Shown: piece after piece, positions 5,223-52,457 of the stretch
Layout: every line of letters begins with the position of its first letter
Numbering within the stretch: position 1 is the first letter of the stretch
Assembly: GCF_000348745.1 (NCBI RefSeq)
Contig: NC_020812.1
Coordinates: forward strand, 1,683,444-1,747,443
Length of the DNA stretch: 64,000 nt
From: Micavibrio aeruginosavorus EPB
GTDB taxonomy: Bacteria; Pseudomonadota; Alphaproteobacteria; Micavibrionales; Micavibrionaceae
Direction of reading: 5' to 3'
Notes under the pieces: generated by a model
Told to the model about the DNA's origin: nothing
The model's database searches: none
The model's input: the letters and a program-made list of their open reading frames with translations, nothing else
Made by a program: the position numbers and the translations under genes

Positions 5223-5252
5223 AACCGGCTCTTCCCCAAGAGCCGGTTTTTC
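5223..5252 (+). terminator. Intrinsic terminator of the flgFGAH operon
   Basis: Perfect 11-bp stem AACCGGCTCTT / AAGAGCCGGTT with a CCCC loop, followed by a T-run on the plus strand. Confidence 0.9.
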
Positions 5253-5261
5253 TTTGGGAGC

Positions 5262-5657
5262 CTAGCTGACCATCAGGCCTTTGAAACTCATCCACGCCAG
5301 ACCGTTGCAATACATGAACGCATCATTCCTGTAATCAATGACCCCCGGTTGCCCGCACAGAAGCCCCGTCGGCAAGCCCAGCAATGTGCGCCATTTCGTG
5401 CCATCGCACAGATAATAAACATTCAGGACATTGTTATAGTCCAGGGCCCCGGGCCTCGAACATGATGGCAACAACAGGTAATCCAGCAAGGCCAGATCGA
5501 CCAAATTAAAACGGAACCAGTTGGCGCCATCAAAAAACTCCATATTATTGATCGTGGAATTATACCGCATCGTACCCGCTGTTTGCGCCTTTGCCGAATT
5601 GGCAAAGCAAAGGATGCAAATTGTCATGATGATTGCGAAAATCCACCGTACCCGCAT
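5262..5657 (-). CDS. Small exported protein with three Y-x(n)-G-x-x-W repeats
   Basis: Unrecognised 131-residue secreted protein. The start at 5657 (MRVRWIFAIIMTICILC) gives a clean signal peptide with cleavage after AKA, and GGGGAA precedes it. The mature part is three degenerate repeats: MRYNSTINNMEFFDGANWFR, LDYNNVLNVYYLCDGTKWRT and IDYRNDAFMYCNGLAWMSF, each built as [MLI]-x-Y-[NR] ... [FY]-x-x-[DN]-G-x-x-W. Comparable units occur in phage tail-fibre and bacterial surface proteins (general knowledge, not searched). Three Cys residues in repeats 2-3 and their linkers could form disulfides. It is alone between two terminators, so it is probably its own transcription unit or reads on from dksA. 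Confidence 0.7.
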   Translation of the reverse strand: MRVRWIFAIIMTICILCFANSAKAQTAGTMRYNSTINNMEFFDGANWFRFNLVDLALLDYLLLPSCSRPGALDYNNVLNVYYLCDGTKWRTLLGLPTGLLCGQPGVIDYRNDAFMYCNGLAWMSFKGLMVS

Positions 5658-5772
5658 AGTCACATTCCCCGAAATCCGCCGTTTCTTAAATCCCTCGGCA
5701 AAGAACGGGGCAACGCGTGTGCCAGCACACCTGTGCATTGGCACCGCACTGTTTTCGCAAAATGAAAACAAC

Positions 5773-5801
5773 AAAAACCCGGCCTTGCGGGCCGGGTTTT
5801 T
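5773..5801. terminator. Bidirectional terminator downstream of dksA
   Basis: AAAAACCCGGC and GCCGGGTTTTT flank a short loop. The A/T tracts on both sides allow function on either strand. It ends the leftward dksA transcript. Confidence 0.85.
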
Positions 5802-13811: not shown

Positions 13812-15524
13812 ATGACCAACGATGTCGTATTGACCGCAGCCTTGCGCACGAACCTGCTGTCGTTGCAGAACACGCAAAGCCTGATCGATATTACCCAGAA
13901 CCGTTTGGCCACGGGTAAAAAGATCAACTCCGCCCTGGACGGCCCGCAAGCGTTCTTCGCCTCTCAGGCGCTGAACAACCGCGCCAGCGACCTCGGCCGC
14001 CTGCTGGACTCCATTGGCCAGTCCATCCAGGTGATCAAAGCCGCCGACAACGGCGTCACCGCCCTGACCACCATGGTGGAACAAGCCGACGCCCTGGTCA
14101 CCAGCGCCCGCGAAGCGGTCGCAAATGCCCAGTCCGAAGCGAAAGTGACAGGCACAAAGGATCTGCGCGGTATCGACGATTTGCGCGGAATTGTCGGCTG
14201 GCCAGCAGATGCTCTGACACGAATCTCCTTCACCCTGACAACGAAGGAAGGCGTATCACGCCCAACAGGTGAATTCGCAACACCTTTGGTCACTGGCGCA
14301 ACGACAAACATTGATGTTGCCGTTGGCACATCAACAGAAGAGCTTTTAGCCCGACTTAACAGCATTGTTGACGCCGATGGAAATCACGTCATTCAAGCTG
14401 AGTTAGACGCAAAAGGCCAGTTGTCGATTAAGACAACAAACGGCGACAGCTTAAATATGAACTTCACCACCACAACAGATGACGATGTCACAAACTTAGG
14501 ATTGGCAAACGCTCTCGGTTTTGGTGACATTGTAAAAGTTACAGCAAACGGCGCAGCAAATGAAGTCGGCGTCACTGCTGTAGCGGACGTTGCGCTGCGT
14601 TCATCTGCACTCCACACCGGCACAACACCGCCAGTGACAGCGCTACGGAGCGATTTGCTGGCCAACATCACAGACTCAAGCGGTAACGCTTTGTTCGGAA
14701 ACCTGAACAACGCCGCCGACGTTTATACAATTGCCATCAATGGCGGTGCCGCAGTCAGCATTCCACTGAACGGACAAAGCATCCAAGGATTTATTGACGA
14801 GATCAACAATAACGGATCTCTAAATACAAAAATCAAAGCCGAGTTTGATGAAGAATTAGGACAACTGTCGATCCGTCCGATTGATGGCAGCGTCCGCAGC
14901 CTTACGATCGGCGTCACAGGTAACGATGCTGGCACGCGTGCTGACTTCGGGTTTGGAACCGTCGACTTGTCCACACCCGGCGCAAACTCGATTTCCGAAC
15001 ACATCACCTTCGGTGACTCCGTCGCGGAACTGGCGAAACTGGAATCCGACTATAACAAGTTGCGGGACCAGATTGATGCCTTGGTGTCCAACGGCGACAC
15101 GGGCTATCGCGGCACGAACCTGCTGTTCGGGGATGACCTGCTGACCGTCTTCAACGAAGACCGTACCAGCTCGATCACCACCGAAGGCGTGACCTTCACC
15201 GCCGATGGTCTGGGTCTGGACGTTGCCGACTTCTCCCGTATCGACACGGTGGAAACCAGCATCGAAAACGTTCGCGAAGCCCTGGAAACCGTGCGGAACT
15301 TTGGTTCCACGCTGGCCAACGATTTGTCGGTCATCCAGGCCCGCCAAACCTTCACCAGCTCGATGGTCACCACGTTGAAAGAGGGCTCCGCCCTGCTGGT
15401 CAACGCCGACCAAAACGAAGAAGGTGCGAAATTGCTGGCACTGCAAACCCGCCAACAGCTGGGCGTCACCGCCCTGTCGCTGGCCTCGCAGTCCCAACAG
15501 GCTATCCTGCGTCTGTTCGGTTAA
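13812..15524 (+). CDS. fliC: Flagellin
   Basis: Filament subunit. The N-terminal D0/D1 part (about 1-130; LLSLQNTQSLIDITQNRLAT, GKKINSALDGPQAFFASQAL) and C-terminal part (about 395-570; ending ALSLASQSQQAILRLFG) are flagellin-like and use the C/G-ending codons of the neighbours. The central segment (about 131-394, bases 14205-14995) contains two flagellin-IN-like modules but switches to A/T-ending codons (ACA, GCA, AAA, TTA), pointing to recombinational replacement. The 570 residues exceed a minimal flagellin (about 270-300). Position after flgE could suggest FlgL, but the C-terminal SLASQSQQAILRLF is the flagellin hallmark. Confidence 0.87.
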   Translation: MTNDVVLTAALRTNLLSLQNTQSLIDITQNRLATGKKINSALDGPQAFFASQALNNRASDLGRLLDSIGQSIQVIKAADNGVTALTTMVEQADALVTSAREAVANAQSEAKVTGTKDLRGIDDLRGIVGWPADALTRISFTLTTKEGVSRPTGEFATPLVTGATTNIDVAVGTSTEELLARLNSIVDADGNHVIQAELDAKGQLSIKTTNGDSLNMNFTTTTDDDVTNLGLANALGFGDIVKVTANGAANEVGVTAVADVALRSSALHTGTTPPVTALRSDLLANITDSSGNALFGNLNNAADVYTIAINGGAAVSIPLNGQSIQGFIDEINNNGSLNTKIKAEFDEELGQLSIRPIDGSVRSLTIGVTGNDAGTRADFGFGTVDLSTPGANSISEHITFGDSVAELAKLESDYNKLRDQIDALVSNGDTGYRGTNLLFGDDLLTVFNEDRTSSITTEGVTFTADGLGLDVADFSRIDTVETSIENVREALETVRNFGSTLANDLSVIQARQTFTSSMVTTLKEGSALLVNADQNEEGAKLLALQTRQQLGVTALSLASQSQQAILRLFG

Positions 15525-16332: not shown

Positions 16333-17895
16333 ATGTCTGTTGCTCAAGAAAAAACATCCGCAGAAATCGCCAACTCCGTGAAGGACATGAAGGACATCGT
16401 CGCCCTGTGCAAACGCCGCGGCTTCGTTTTTCCGGCATCCGACATTTATGGCGGCCTGAACGGGTTTTGGGATTACGGCCCGCTGGGTGTTGAGCTGAAA
16501 AACAACCTGCGCGATTTGTGGTGGAAATGGATGGTCACTTGCCCGCCCGTTGGCCCGGATGGCCAGCCGGTGGATATTGTCGGCATCGATTCATCCATCA
16601 TCCAGAACCCGAAAACATGGGAAGCATCGGGCCACGTCGGCGGATTCTCCGACCCGATGGTGGATTGCCGCGAAACGAAATTGCGGTATCGCGCCGACCA
16701 TCTCAGCATCATTTATTGGATTGGTGAAACATTCGCAGTAGCCATTTTTGATGACTGGGATGAAGATACGATTGCAAAGCGCCTCAAAAAACTTGGCGTC
16801 AGCAAAAAAATTGGAGATGCAGGCTACACAAGAATTCAAGGGATTCAAGTTGCAGGCGCTGGTCAACCTGGCCTTGATAGGACTTACGGACCTGACGCAA
16901 AAGAAATCGGCACCCTGACCGAACCGAAACAATTCAACCTGATGTTCCACACCTTCGTCGGCGCCACGGGCGGCGATGATAACAAGGCGTATCTGCGTCC
17001 GGAAACGGCGCAGGGAATCTTCCTGAACTTTAAAAACGTGCTGGATTCATCCCGCGTGCGCGTACCGTTCGGGATTGCGCAAGTGGGCAAAGCCTTCCGT
17101 AACGAGGTCAACCCGCGCAACTTCATCTTCCGGTCCCGTGAATTTGAACAGATGGAAATGGAATGGTTCTGCCACCCGAGCGAAGCCAAAATGTGGCGCG
17201 ACTTCTGGTTCGCGGAGCGTCAAAAATTCTGGACCGCGATCGGTTTGGTCAGCGAGAACGTGCGTATGCGCGACCATGACAAGGACGAATTGTCCCACTA
17301 CGCCAAGGAAGGGCTGGGCACCGCCGACATCGAATATCGCTTCCCGTTCACCGCGCCGGGCTTTGGCGAGTTGGAGGGCATTGCCCACCGCTGCAATTTC
17401 GATTTGACCCAGCACCAGAAGCATTCCGGCGTCAAAATGGAATACACCGACCCGATGGACCCGAAAAACAAATTCATTCCGGACGTCATCGAACCGGCCG
17501 CCGGTTTGACGCGCGGCGTTCTGGCCCTGCTGTGCGAAGCCTACACCCCGGATCCGAACCGTCCGTCGGGCGTTTACCTGAACCTGCACCCGGCATTGGC
17601 CCCGAAGAAGGCCGCCATCCTGCCGCTGACGGCGAAGGATCAGCACCCGGTGATCGCCACGAAACTGTACATGGATATCCGCAACGAATTCGCGGTCGAT
17701 CTGGACATCAAACAAAACATCGGCAAACGCTACGCCCGTCAGGACGAAATCGGCACGCCGTATTGCTTCACCATCGACGACCAGACCGTGTCCGACCAGA
17801 CCGTCACGGTGCGCGAACGCAACACGATGTCGCAGGAACGCATCGGCCTGGACCACGTGGCAGAATACTTACGCAAACATATCCGCAGCGTTTAA
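16333..17895 (+). CDS. glyS: Glycyl-tRNA synthetase, single-chain eukaryote/archaea-type, with an atypical insertion segment
   Basis: Class II synthetase charging tRNA-Gly. Start set at 16333 (MSVAQEKTSAEI; AGGAAAACC upstream), giving 520 residues. Family blocks: DIVALCKRRGFVFPASDIYG, DYGPLGVELKNNL, motif 2 FRNEVNPRNFIFRSREF, motif 3 EPAAGLTRGVLALL and a C-terminal anticodon-binding domain (IGKRYARQDEIGTPYCFTI). Residues about 124-192 (bases 16700-16905), between CRETKLRYRADH and GTLTEPKQFNLMF, occupy the variable insertion of the family. They use AT-rich, rare codons (AGA, AGG, GGA, TTA-type) unlike the rest of the gene. Reading frame is intact, so the enzyme is probably functional. Confidence 0.93.
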   Translation: MSVAQEKTSAEIANSVKDMKDIVALCKRRGFVFPASDIYGGLNGFWDYGPLGVELKNNLRDLWWKWMVTCPPVGPDGQPVDIVGIDSSIIQNPKTWEASGHVGGFSDPMVDCRETKLRYRADHLSIIYWIGETFAVAIFDDWDEDTIAKRLKKLGVSKKIGDAGYTRIQGIQVAGAGQPGLDRTYGPDAKEIGTLTEPKQFNLMFHTFVGATGGDDNKAYLRPETAQGIFLNFKNVLDSSRVRVPFGIAQVGKAFRNEVNPRNFIFRSREFEQMEMEWFCHPSEAKMWRDFWFAERQKFWTAIGLVSENVRMRDHDKDELSHYAKEGLGTADIEYRFPFTAPGFGELEGIAHRCNFDLTQHQKHSGVKMEYTDPMDPKNKFIPDVIEPAAGLTRGVLALLCEAYTPDPNRPSGVYLNLHPALAPKKAAILPLTAKDQHPVIATKLYMDIRNEFAVDLDIKQNIGKRYARQDEIGTPYCFTIDDQTVSDQTVTVRERNTMSQERIGLDHVAEYLRKHIRSV

Positions 17896-23122: not shown

Positions 23123-23199
<77 letters not shown>

Positions 23200-23232: not shown

Positions 23233-23446
23233 ATTGTGCCTGTTCAAACAAGAAGGCTTTGCCCGTCCGCCTACACCCAAAGCACGCATAATAATTACGT
23301 CCTCTCTCATTCCACCCTATATTAATCAGTGACACTGGTGCCCGATACATGCACGGCCATATTGGCCGCGAAGGGGGCGTTGTTGCTTGTTCACTGTATC
23401 GCGCACCAGAAGATCTCCCAGAAACGCAAAACCAGAGGAGGCTATT

Positions 23447-23686
23447 ATGTTACGTCTCATCATATGTTCCGGACTTGTTATCCTGCTTTCTGCTTGCGGG
23501 ACATCGTCATCAGATCGGGCTTTGAGCGGTGGCGCTATTGGCGCGGGTGTGGGGGCCGTCGGTAGTTCTCTCACAGGCGGTAGCCCCTATACCGGGGCCA
23601 TTATTGGGGGTGCCGTTGGTGCCGCGGCTGGTGGCTTGACGGATGAAGATGACGTCAATCTTGGCAAACCGATCTGGAGAAAATAA
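23447..23686 (+). CDS. Glycine-zipper lipoprotein
   Basis: 79-residue outer-membrane-type lipoprotein. Start at 23447 has a strong GAGGAGG. Signal peptide LRLIICSGLVILLSAC with lipobox LSAC; mature protein begins with Ser-rich CGTSSSD and then a glycine-zipper segment (GGAIGAGVGAVGSSL and GAIIGGAVGAAAGGL) typical of small 17-kDa-antigen/osmotically inducible lipoproteins. The C-terminus is short and charged. It is followed by an OmpA-domain gene 268 bp on. Confidence 0.8.
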   Translation: MLRLIICSGLVILLSACGTSSSDRALSGGAIGAGVGAVGSSLTGGSPYTGAIIGGAVGAAAGGLTDEDDVNLGKPIWRK

Positions 23687-23713
23687 CCCACGCGGACACG
23701 CCTGGCCGTTATG

Positions 23714-23739
23714 TTTGTGGGCGCAGATGCGCCCACAAA
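23714..23739. repeat. Perfect 11-bp inverted repeat
   Basis: TTTGTGGGCGC-AGAT-GCGCCCACAAA downstream of the glycine-zipper lipoprotein. No T-run follows, so it may be an mRNA-stabilising hairpin or weak terminator. A second small palindrome, CCGCAG-ATTC-CTGCGG, lies at 23794-23809. Confidence 0.55.
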
Positions 23740-23954
23740 TGCATTCGCAAACATTTGAAACAAATTTAAAACATCAAAACACAACCGTGACATCCGCAGA
23801 TTCCTGCGGCCTCTGCTTTGTCGTTTGAAAAATGCAACAGCTCCGCCGCCATCCTATCCCCCGAAATATTATCCTTAAGGTTTCCCTATAGACTGAACGG
23901 ACTACCCTTAATGATCGATATCAGGTGTACACCGATGATCGAAAGGATAAAAAA

Positions 23955-50202: not shown

Positions 50203-50289
50203 TGGTGGCCCCGGCCGGAATCGAACCGGCACGCCCTTACGAGCGAGCGATTTTAAGTCGCTTGCGTCTACCAGTTCCGCCACGGGGCC
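50203..50289 (-). tRNA. tRNA-Leu (anticodon UAA)
   Basis: 87-nt class II tRNA: acceptor GGCCCCG/CGGGGCC, D arm GCG...CGC, anticodon stem GCGA/TCGC with loop CTTAAAA (anticodon UAA, reads UUA), long variable arm (CGCTCGTAAGGGCGTG), T arm CCGG-TTCGATT-CCGG, then A and an encoded CCA. It lies 47 bp downstream of the AT-rich orphan gene in opposite orientation. Confidence 0.95.
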
Positions 50290-50416
50290 AGCCGGGTGAT
50301 ATGGGCGGTAGAAAGCCGGGGCAGATTAGCGGGAAATCGGGACGGTGGAAAGACTGAATTCCGGTATTTCCCGGCTTTATGGGGGTTCATTTTCCCCTTT
50401 TCCCACAGTGGCACCG

Positions 50417-50425
50417 TGTTAAAAT
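50417..50425 (+). promoter_or_regulatory. Extended -10 promoter of the FAD monooxygenase gene, probably leaderless
   Basis: TGT-TAAAAT, ending 7 nt before the ATG at 50433, with no Shine-Dalgarno. Same geometry as nth, hrcA and the polyprenyl synthase gene. Confidence 0.45.
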
Positions 50426-50432
50426 CGCCCCC

Positions 50433-51659
50433 ATGGACACGCACCCATCCCCAATTAAGACCATCAAAACCACCTGTTGTATCGCTGGCGGCGGTCCGGC
50501 TGGCATGATGGCGGGGTTGTTGCTGGCCCGGGACGGGGTCGATGTTGTGGTGTTGGAAAAACACGCTGATTTCCTCCGCGATTTTCGGGGGGACACTATT
50601 CATCCGTCCACCATGGAACTGATGGCCGAACTTGGCGTGCTAAACCGGTTTTTGTCCCGCCCGCATCAAAAAATCCACCGCCTGAATGGCTTTTTTGGCA
50701 CACAGGAAATCACCATCGCGGATTTTTCGCGCCTGCCCGTGCATTGCCCATACATTGCCATGATGCCGCAATGGGATTTTCTGGATTTCCTGGTGGATGA
50801 AGGAGCGCAATACCCACATTTCCGCATCATGATGAAGACCAAAGCCGCGGGCTTGATCGAAAGCGATCATCGCATCAGTGGCGTTTATGCGGAAACCGAA
50901 GACGGTATAATCGCCATTGAATCCGACCTGGTGATCGGGGCCGATGGACGTCGTTCGACATTGCGGACACAGGCCAGTTTTCAGGCCGTTGATCAGGGCG
51001 CACCCATTGATGTGTTATGGATGAAAATTTCGCGCAAACCCACCGACCCCGACCAGGCATCGGGCCGGTTTGATCGTGGGCGCGGATTTATCATGCTGTA
51101 CCGCGAAGAATATTGGCAATGCGCCTGGATCATCCCCAAGGGTGCTTATGAATCCATTCGCGCCCAAGGGATGGAGGCGTTTCATCAATCCCTTTTGAGT
51201 GTGGCCCCGTTCCTACACGACCGGATGGATGAATTGCGCGACTGGGGCGATATCAGCCTGTTGACCATCACGGTGGACCGGCTGGAACAATGGTTTAAAC
51301 CGGGATTGTTATTTATTGGCGACGCCGCGCATGCCATGTCACCCATTGGCGGCGTTGGTATCAACCTGGCCATTCAGGATGCCGTGGCCGCCGCGCGTAT
51401 TTTGGCGACACCTTTGAAAAACGGCACCTGCACAATTGCGGATTTACAAAAGGTGCAAGACCGCCGCATGTGGCCGACACGGATGACGCAGAATGTTCAG
51501 TTATTTATGCAGAACCGCATCTTTGGCCCGTTGGTAACGCGGAAGGACAATTCCGATTTTCCGGTCGCCATGCGCATGATTCTCCGCCTGCCGTTCCTGC
51601 GTCTTGTCACCGCGCGGATTATCGGCATGGGGTTCCGCCCCGAACATATTCAGGATTAA
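50433..51659 (+). CDS. FAD-dependent aromatic-ring-type monooxygenase
   Basis: 408-residue flavoprotein hydroxylase of the PHBH/UbiH-related class. Rossmann FAD motif CCIAGGGPAGMMAGLLLAR with acidic VLEKH, second motif DLVIGADGRRSTLR (the DG motif), and third FAD/ribityl motif GDAAHAMSPIGGVG. The C-terminus is short and lacks extra domains. Substrate unknown; close relatives oxidise aromatic or polyketide-like compounds. No pathway genes adjoin it. Convergent with the CinA-like gene 4 bp on. Confidence 0.88.
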   Translation: MDTHPSPIKTIKTTCCIAGGGPAGMMAGLLLARDGVDVVVLEKHADFLRDFRGDTIHPSTMELMAELGVLNRFLSRPHQKIHRLNGFFGTQEITIADFSRLPVHCPYIAMMPQWDFLDFLVDEGAQYPHFRIMMKTKAAGLIESDHRISGVYAETEDGIIAIESDLVIGADGRRSTLRTQASFQAVDQGAPIDVLWMKISRKPTDPDQASGRFDRGRGFIMLYREEYWQCAWIIPKGAYESIRAQGMEAFHQSLLSVAPFLHDRMDELRDWGDISLLTITVDRLEQWFKPGLLFIGDAAHAMSPIGGVGINLAIQDAVAAARILATPLKNGTCTIADLQKVQDRRMWPTRMTQNVQLFMQNRIFGPLVTRKDNSDFPVAMRMILRLPFLRLVTARIIGMGFRPEHIQD

Positions 51660-51662
51660 AAA

Positions 51663-52457
51663 TCAGACAACGTCCAAATTCCGCCCATGCGACCCGACGC
51701 TGAGGGCGCGGGGTTCGTCGCCGTGGGCGCGGATCATGGCGATGATGTCCTGGGTCACGGTGTCCAGACTATCGCTGTTGGTGGCGCGCATGACGAGGGA
51801 CAGGCCCAGAACGCCGCCGCGATAATGCGGGTATGACCCGATATCAACATCCGGGTATTTGTTTTGCAGGGCGGTGAGTTCCTCGGCCACTTTGCTTTCG
51901 GGCAGGGAACACGTAACCGTGTTGGAGAGCAGCGGTTTGCCCGCCTGAATTTGATCTAAAACGTGGTCCATCATCGCCTGCATGATGCGGGGAACGCCCG
52001 CCATCACATGCACGTTTTTGGTGATGAAGCCCGGCGCGCCGGACACGGGGTTGGGGATCAGGGTGGATCCCTTTGGCACCATGCTCATCTTCGCGCGCGG
52101 CGGGGTGAGGTTTTCGAGGCCGTAATATTCCTCCAACACCGCGAACGCTTCGTCATCGCGTTCCAGCGGCAGGCCGAACGCCTTGGCCACGCTTTCGGCG
52201 GTGATGTCGTCATGCGTCGGGCCAATGCCGCCGGTGGTGAAGACGTAATCGTAATCCGCGCTCAGTTGCTGGACCGTGTTGATGATTTTAGCCTCAATAT
52301 CCGGGATGACCCGCACCTCGGCCAACAGGATGCCGCGCTCGGTCAGCCGTTCGGCAATCCAGGGGGTATTGGCGTCCGTTGTCCGCCCGGACAGGATTTC
52401 ATTGCCGATAATCACCAGAGCGGCTTTGTACAAATCGGGGTTTTCGTATTGCGGCAT
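51663..52457 (-). CDS. CinA-type molybdopterin-binding domain protein
   Basis: 264 residues matching the N-terminal (MoaB/MogA-like, COG1058) domain of competence/damage-inducible protein CinA: IIGNEILSGRTTDANTPW, VFTTGGIGPTHDDITAES and NVHVMAGVPRIMQAM. The C-terminal nicotinamide-nucleotide deamidase domain of full CinA is absent, as in many alphaproteobacterial stand-alone forms. COG1058 domains have been linked to ADP-ribose/NAD-adduct pyrophosphatase activity; the role here is inferred only. Confidence 0.88.
   Translation of the reverse strand: MPQYENPDLYKAALVIIGNEILSGRTTDANTPWIAERLTERGILLAEVRVIPDIEAKIINTVQQLSADYDYVFTTGGIGPTHDDITAESVAKAFGLPLERDDEAFAVLEEYYGLENLTPPRAKMSMVPKGSTLIPNPVSGAPGFITKNVHVMAGVPRIMQAMMDHVLDQIQAGKPLLSNTVTCSLPESKVAEELTALQNKYPDVDIGSYPHYRGGVLGLSLVMRATNSDSLDTVTQDIIAMIRAHGDEPRALSVGSHGRNLDVV

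Follow-up and report, generated by a model that had tools for sequence, protein, structure and literature searches.

Aminoacyl-tRNA synthetases are usually thought to be inherited vertically or transferred whole. Mosaic genes arise by intragenic recombination, in which variable domains such as the centre of flagellin are exchanged. In the case of glycyl-tRNA synthetase (GlyRS), the nearest published remark that we have found concerns two mycobacterial enzymes, which are 79.8% identical and fall into groups with "different insertion domains", one of them with a zinc motif (PMC12208437). In the accessible part of that paper, the remark is a single sentence and comes without an exchange process, codon evidence or recurrence. 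In the same part, the insertion domain of the mycobacterial structures follows the first core strand and becomes more ordered with ligand, and the zinc-type domain has a helical part that is "likely" placed at the tRNA acceptor arm. Human GlyRS is described there as carrying three insertions within the catalytic domain (PMC12208437). No description of a recurrent exchange of the GlyRS insertion domain was found in the literature, as judged by titles and the starts of abstracts. The gene considered here is glyS of Micavibrio aeruginosavorus EPB, in a window of 64,000 nucleotides on contig NC_020812.1. For convenience, G-numbers denote genomes, L-numbers denote glyS loci, and the insert is residues 124-193 of GlyRS from the genome of the window (G000; one contig, 2,458,610 bases) together with their counterparts in other enzymes. 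The sister species (G002) is also represented by a single contig. The glyS gene of G000 is probably a mosaic: its insert would have been swapped by recombination at or near its conserved edges, as would have happened many times over in this type of GlyRS.

The glyS product is a GlyRS of the alpha2 type. It scores 570.1 bits against NCBIfam NF003211 (cut-off 312) and 459.3 bits against TIGR00389 (cut-off 243.3), and it matches the GlyRS entries 8u2q, 8sld, and 1ati of the PDB. The predicted structure has the fold of solved GlyRS (8slf, Z 40.5, root-mean-square deviation (rmsd) 2.9, 384 aligned residues; 1ati, Z 34.5, rmsd 3.5, 400 aligned residues). The catalytic core is also homologous to that of the human GlyRS-tRNA complexes 4kr2 and 5e6m (Z 30.4 and 31.2), in an alignment that concerns the whole chain and not the correspondence of inserts.

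The first-pass annotation of the window had marked a foreign-looking block at about residues 124-192 of this enzyme and taken it for a domain of an essential enzyme replaced by recombination with DNA of lower GC content, a change that might affect how tRNA or inhibitors are recognized. The block is confirmed, in frame between KLRYRADH and TLTEPKQF, and its limits are now residues 124-193 (Table 1). GC content is 0.450 over 16700-16899, compared with 0.585 over 16500-16699 and 0.560 over 16900-17099. The shift persists when GC content at third codon positions (GC3) is calculated: GC3 is 0.36 in the block versus 0.76 in the rest of glyS, where the lowest other 70-codon window has 0.67, and the block lies at z = -7.8 after control for amino-acid make-up. 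Scored against the codon usage of the window itself, the block (-0.208) falls below all 1201 codon windows of 39 open reading frames (ORFs), which were hand-chosen by length and without annotation. The lowest of these comparison windows (-0.204) lies in the flagellin gene, which also holds most of the next-lowest scores. By GC3 alone, one of the 1201 is as low as the block. The codons named at first as foreign are all present (GCA 5, AAA 5, GGA 2, CTT 2, AGA 1, AGG 1), but the commonest codon of the block is ATT (7), and the native-looking GGC also occurs 5 times.

The sister species differs sharply from G000 in the insert and far less outside it. In a tree of the flanks, the two are sisters with a support of 100 and branch lengths of 0.0075 and 0. 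Their GlyRS proteins are 99.3% identical in the flanks versus 30% in the insert, and the corresponding DNA identities are 0.93 in the N-terminal flank, 0.46 in the insert, and 0.93 in the C-terminal flank. The insert of the sister has a GC3 of 0.65 (z -1.0), and its codon use is near that of its own gene. No natively coded copy of the block is therefore found in this close relative, and the initial reading of a replaced domain gains support from its different insert as well as from the GC3 shift. Since the insert of the sister is coded like its own gene, a recent replacement is more likely to have taken place in the lineage of the window.

Across the 64 kb of the window, comparison with the sister species reveals eight islands of low identity. 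Identity reaches its lowest point (0.51) in the GlyRS block, between sides at 0.93 and 0.92. The second-lowest minimum (0.53) belongs to the flagellin gene (13812-15524), whose central part, 14471-15011, is nearly as unusual in its codons as the GlyRS block; this divergence is the usual variable centre of flagellin. The next island, 5251-5581 (minimum 0.54; conserved sides at 0.97 and 0.86), overlaps an ORF on the minus strand (5262-5774) without a Pfam match.

The ends of the block are sharp. DNA identity to the sister species falls at about 16701, recovers at about 16917-16918, and is 100% over 16922-16981. The right end lies at the G-TLTEP junction in this pair and in the pairs L018/L055, L078/L087, and L163/L168. 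In the exception, L188, low identity continues about 90 nt past the right edge. On the left, low identity extends beyond the insert and across the edge by about 30 nt in L078/L087 and by about 60 nt in L163/L168. The replaced DNA of L168 and L087 takes in the RETK...RADH edge in a wording that differs from that of the sister, indicating that their donors were glyS genes. In the 29 genes with the strongest codon shift (see below), the insert has a GC3 residual of -0.34. The residual shrinks to -0.10 and -0.08 in the ten codons next to it on either side and lies between -0.06 and 0.10 farther out, so that the signal is confined to the insert and its edges. As in mosaic genes such as that of flagellin, a sharp-edged block that diverges between close relatives is combined in glyS of G000 with a composition unlike that of the rest of an otherwise vertical gene. 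Unlike flagellin, GlyRS is an essential aminoacyl-tRNA synthetase of the cytosol and does not lie on the cell surface, and what is exchanged in it is an entire structural subdomain.

Relatives were gathered as 193 GlyRS loci, corresponding to 127 distinct genes, of which 126 were used (L132 is incomplete). The set is non-exhaustive: it holds the best 80 of 183 loci from one search, and the insert query matched 82 of 104 genomes of the family, most of the non-matching ones being outside the set. L052, L124, L138, and L190 contain N. Near-identical genes are included (e.g. L009/L035/L036 and L108-L110); the counts below are therefore of genes, and the estimate of events is the number of changes on the flank tree, a quick tree without a mixture model, which is at least 23 for the low-GC3 state of the insert.

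Codon use is shifted to z < -4 in 29 of the 126 inserts versus none of 756 flank windows. At z < -3, the counts are 37 inserts versus 7 flank windows, and no insert lies above z = 3. In neighbouring ORFs, chosen by length and without annotation, 3 of 802 windows fall below -4, in 3 of 156 ORFs. The strongest low-GC3 inserts include those of L083 (z -17.8), L106 (-16.7), L087 (-13.2), and L070 (-11.4). Some of the unshifted inserts may be older replacements, so that 29 would be no upper bound. The block of G000 is distinct from that of its sister, but it is no one-off: the same domain appears to be exchanged recurrently in this type of GlyRS.

The insert identities of close relatives fall into two modes. 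The 45 pairs whose flanks are identical to 0.90 or more overlap and are not independent; in 16 of them the inserts are 0.20-0.40 identical, in the other 29 at least 0.62, and none falls in between. This looks like discrete replacement rather than a continuum. In the most striking pair, G014/G118 (L018/L055), the flanks are 0.99 identical and the inserts 0.20. The corresponding values are 0.95 and 0.21 for G056/G053 (L078/L087) and 0.94 and 0.23 for G071/G072 (L163/L168). At the same flank identity of 0.99, L011 and L042 have kept inserts that are 0.95 identical. Length may change as well, from 86 residues in L018 to 64 in L055 and from 66 in L078 to 87 in L087.

The pattern extends to another phylum. 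In Phycisphaerae, z is below -4 in 11 of 50 inserts versus 3 of 300 windows (10 of 45 inserts without the 5 loci already among the 126), a fraction biased upward by a set that consists of the 30 best-scoring loci and 20 picked for a non-aligning insert. A CPxCG-type insert of Phycisphaerae (L296) is 0.69 identical to that of an alphaproteobacterial locus from a metagenome bin (L089), and the flanks of the two are 0.66 identical. Among 750 background cross pairs, the mean is 0.24 and the maximum 0.42. By sequence identity, this class of insert is the best evidence in our analysis for a probable exchange between phyla.

The block is a variant of an existing variable domain and not an extra insertion. 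At its position, the 127 distinct relatives have a variable stretch of 61-121 residues, which has no counterpart in the alignment of other alphaproteobacterial GlyRS that are about 454-470 residues long. The mean pairwise identity, in a sample of between-species pairs, is 0.31 for the insert versus 0.58-0.80 for six flank windows, and P187 is the only invariant residue within 124-193 in 59 aligned sequences. The AlphaFold models of both sisters have the order strand-strand-helix-strand-helix in the insert, as compared by order and not by superposition. In G000, the strands are 124-128, 135-139, and 164-167 and the helices 144-153 and 168-172; in G002, in its own numbering, the strands are 107-112, 119-123, and 147-151 and the helices 128-138 and 157-162. 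Ten-residue means of the predicted local distance difference test score for G000 are 84-92 over 121-170 and 62 over 171-180, and both models have low confidence in parts of the catalytic core. The 70-residue insert of G000 has no cysteine and thus differs from the zinc-type mycobacterial domain; the CPxCG cysteine pair is present in relatives (L089, L092, L188, L083, L296, L297, and L299). The mycobacterial enzymes resemble this case in that otherwise similar proteins carry different insertion domains, proposed to lie near the acceptor arm (PMC12208437, in the part accessible). By analogy, our working role for the insert is that of a flexible piece next to the acceptor arm of the tRNA; the insert would need its fold but would be free in its sequence.

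In the favoured explanation, the flanks of GlyRS would have descended vertically, while residues 124-193 would have been exchanged for those of a divergent homologue. The source would most likely be another, more AT-rich glyS gene, and recombination would end in or beside the conserved edges RETKxRYRADH and TLTEPKQFNLMF. The donors are presumably glyS genes of AT-rich bacteria and the mechanism homologous recombination.

Several results weigh against this account. No donor has come to light in the samples searched: the best match in 142 genomes of the order is 40-41%; in 398 sampled genomes of the phylum, the L168 insert with its edges matched just G000 and one member of the class; five further loci, which came from searches of the class and the phylum and of which two are one and the same gene, have inserts 0.15-0.31 identical to that of G000; and viral_contigs has no match to exact 8-residue patterns of the whole GlyRS. 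Phages and plasmids gave no insert of this type and no donor: the four phage matches (43-48% identity) lie in unannotated records of 2-17 kb, and 16 plasmid records have GlyRS at 30-45%. In the approximately unbiased (AU) test on a 66-column insert alignment, a clade of the G000 and G002 inserts is not rejected (p = 0.37), and neither are those of three other sister pairs (p = 0.24, 0.40, and 0.17). The insert of G002 is just 0.29-0.34 identical to those of its congeners (L003, L004, and L005), so that the replacement may have occurred in either of the two sisters. Insert GC3 is below that of the flanks in 113 of 126 genes, so that part of the shift may be general to the domain, whether through import time and again or through an inherent property. 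Finally, the two sister models were built from alignments that hold each other's sequences, and the working role is drawn from analogy. Since the AU test does not reject sister inserts and a donor has not been found, the block is called foreign on the strength of codon use, DNA divergence, and the two modes of insert identity, and not of a resolved insert tree. A class search of 289 genomes with the whole protein as query gave no close donor. The G000 genome itself was rejected as a source, be it from another gene copy or from a silent cassette, since a search at E up to 1 gave a single match. Some ORFs of about 450 residues, which the insert matched weakly but repeatedly, had looked like carriers of a related domain; two of them are EPSP synthases by their motifs, and the match was taken as chance.

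The insert might instead have diverged in place, freely or under positive selection, with codons drifting towards AT and with no foreign DNA. Its standing as the least conserved part of the enzyme, its general lean towards AT, and the outcome of the AU test all fit such runaway substitution. We nevertheless regard it as quite unlikely. The gap between 0.40 and 0.62 in close pairs, the contrast at a flank identity of 0.99 between L011/L042 and L018/L055, the unequal insert lengths within close pairs, the insert class common to two phyla at 0.69, and the 97 of 126 inserts that are not below z = -4 all speak against it. A chimera of assembly or binning is highly improbable; metagenome bins are frequent among the other genomes, and L089 of the comparison between phyla comes from one, but G000 and G002 are single-contig, the block lies inside one gene with an intact frame, and the pattern repeats across many assemblies. 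Exchange to suit changed acceptor arms or charging rates of tRNA-Gly is unlikely. The placement of the helical part of the zinc-type mycobacterial domain as "likely" at the acceptor arm (PMC12208437, in the part accessible) would fit it. However, the tRNA-Gly genes GCC and CCC, found by a pattern search that did not recover the UCC isoacceptor, are letter-for-letter identical in the two sisters, so that those tRNAs do not explain the swap, and G001 and G004 share the letters of the acceptor stem with them.

If recombinational exchange of the insert is accepted, what drives it is a separate question. The simplest driver, which we consider possible, is that glyS recombines along its conserved stretches, that new inserts are tolerated, and that foreign flanks are removed as damaging. 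Conserved edges do border the insert, exchange ends in or near them, and the order of the fold elements is preserved. In a sample of pairs, flank windows of different species are just 0.58-0.80 identical, so that a foreign tract there would alter many residues and might be lost again; a count of 0 of 756 is then to be expected. For the same reason, the lack of AT-rich flank tracts is not taken to indicate selection in favour of new inserts, such tracts not being silent. Tolerance of new inserts and intolerance of foreign flanks would suffice for the turnover. On the other side, nearby genes seldom show such blocks (3 of 156 ORFs), though most must presumably have tolerant stretches, and divergent DNA normally recombines poorly. 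A bolder reading, which we consider doubtful, is that the insert is a contested surface, attacked by a protein or compound made by phage, competitors or prey, from which bacteria of several phyla escape by importing replacement domains. If true, domains would be imported as in variable surface proteins, yet in an essential cytosolic enzyme. Under recombinational exchange with either driver, one subdomain of GlyRS would turn over discretely and repeatedly while the rest of the enzyme stays, which is unexpected for such an enzyme. The two sister species, with one exchanged domain and identical GCC and CCC tRNA-Gly genes, form a testable system for the function of the insert and for a possible attack on it, and the insert segment is better excluded from GlyRS phylogenies.

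Table 1. Coordinates of glyS, its insert and the conserved edges in the window
Feature	Coordinates	Strand	Length	Basis
glyS, homodimeric-type (alpha2) glycine--tRNA ligase	16333..17895	+	520 aa	NF003211, TIGR00389, and PDB GlyRS matches
Insertion domain, probably replaced, residues 124-193	16702..16911	+		GC3 z -7.8; divergence from G002; predicted model
KLRYRADH, conserved edge on the left (residues 116-123), probable site of crossover	16678..16701	+		Identity to G002 collapses just 3' of the edge
TLTEPKQFNLMFH, conserved edge on the right (residues 194-206), probable site of crossover	16912..16950	+		Identity to G002 is back at about 16918

A GNAT acetyltransferase gene (PF00583; 15704-16216, minus strand) adjoins glyS. 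GNAT homologues lie inside the read flanks of glyS in 15 of 80 searched loci, 13 of the 15 at 40-45% identity. The gene is a conserved neighbour of glyS and possibly has a functional link to glycyl-tRNA or an inhibitor.

Two further stretches of the window have no match in the syntenic stretch of the sister species, each of them beside a tRNA gene. The first, 50355-51666, adjoins tRNA-Leu (50203-50289), and in its place the sister carries different DNA of about 10 kb; the ORF of the window at 50379-51659 encodes an FAD-binding-domain protein. The second variable site of this kind is 23236-23823, 588 bases that adjoin tRNA-Pro (23123-23199).
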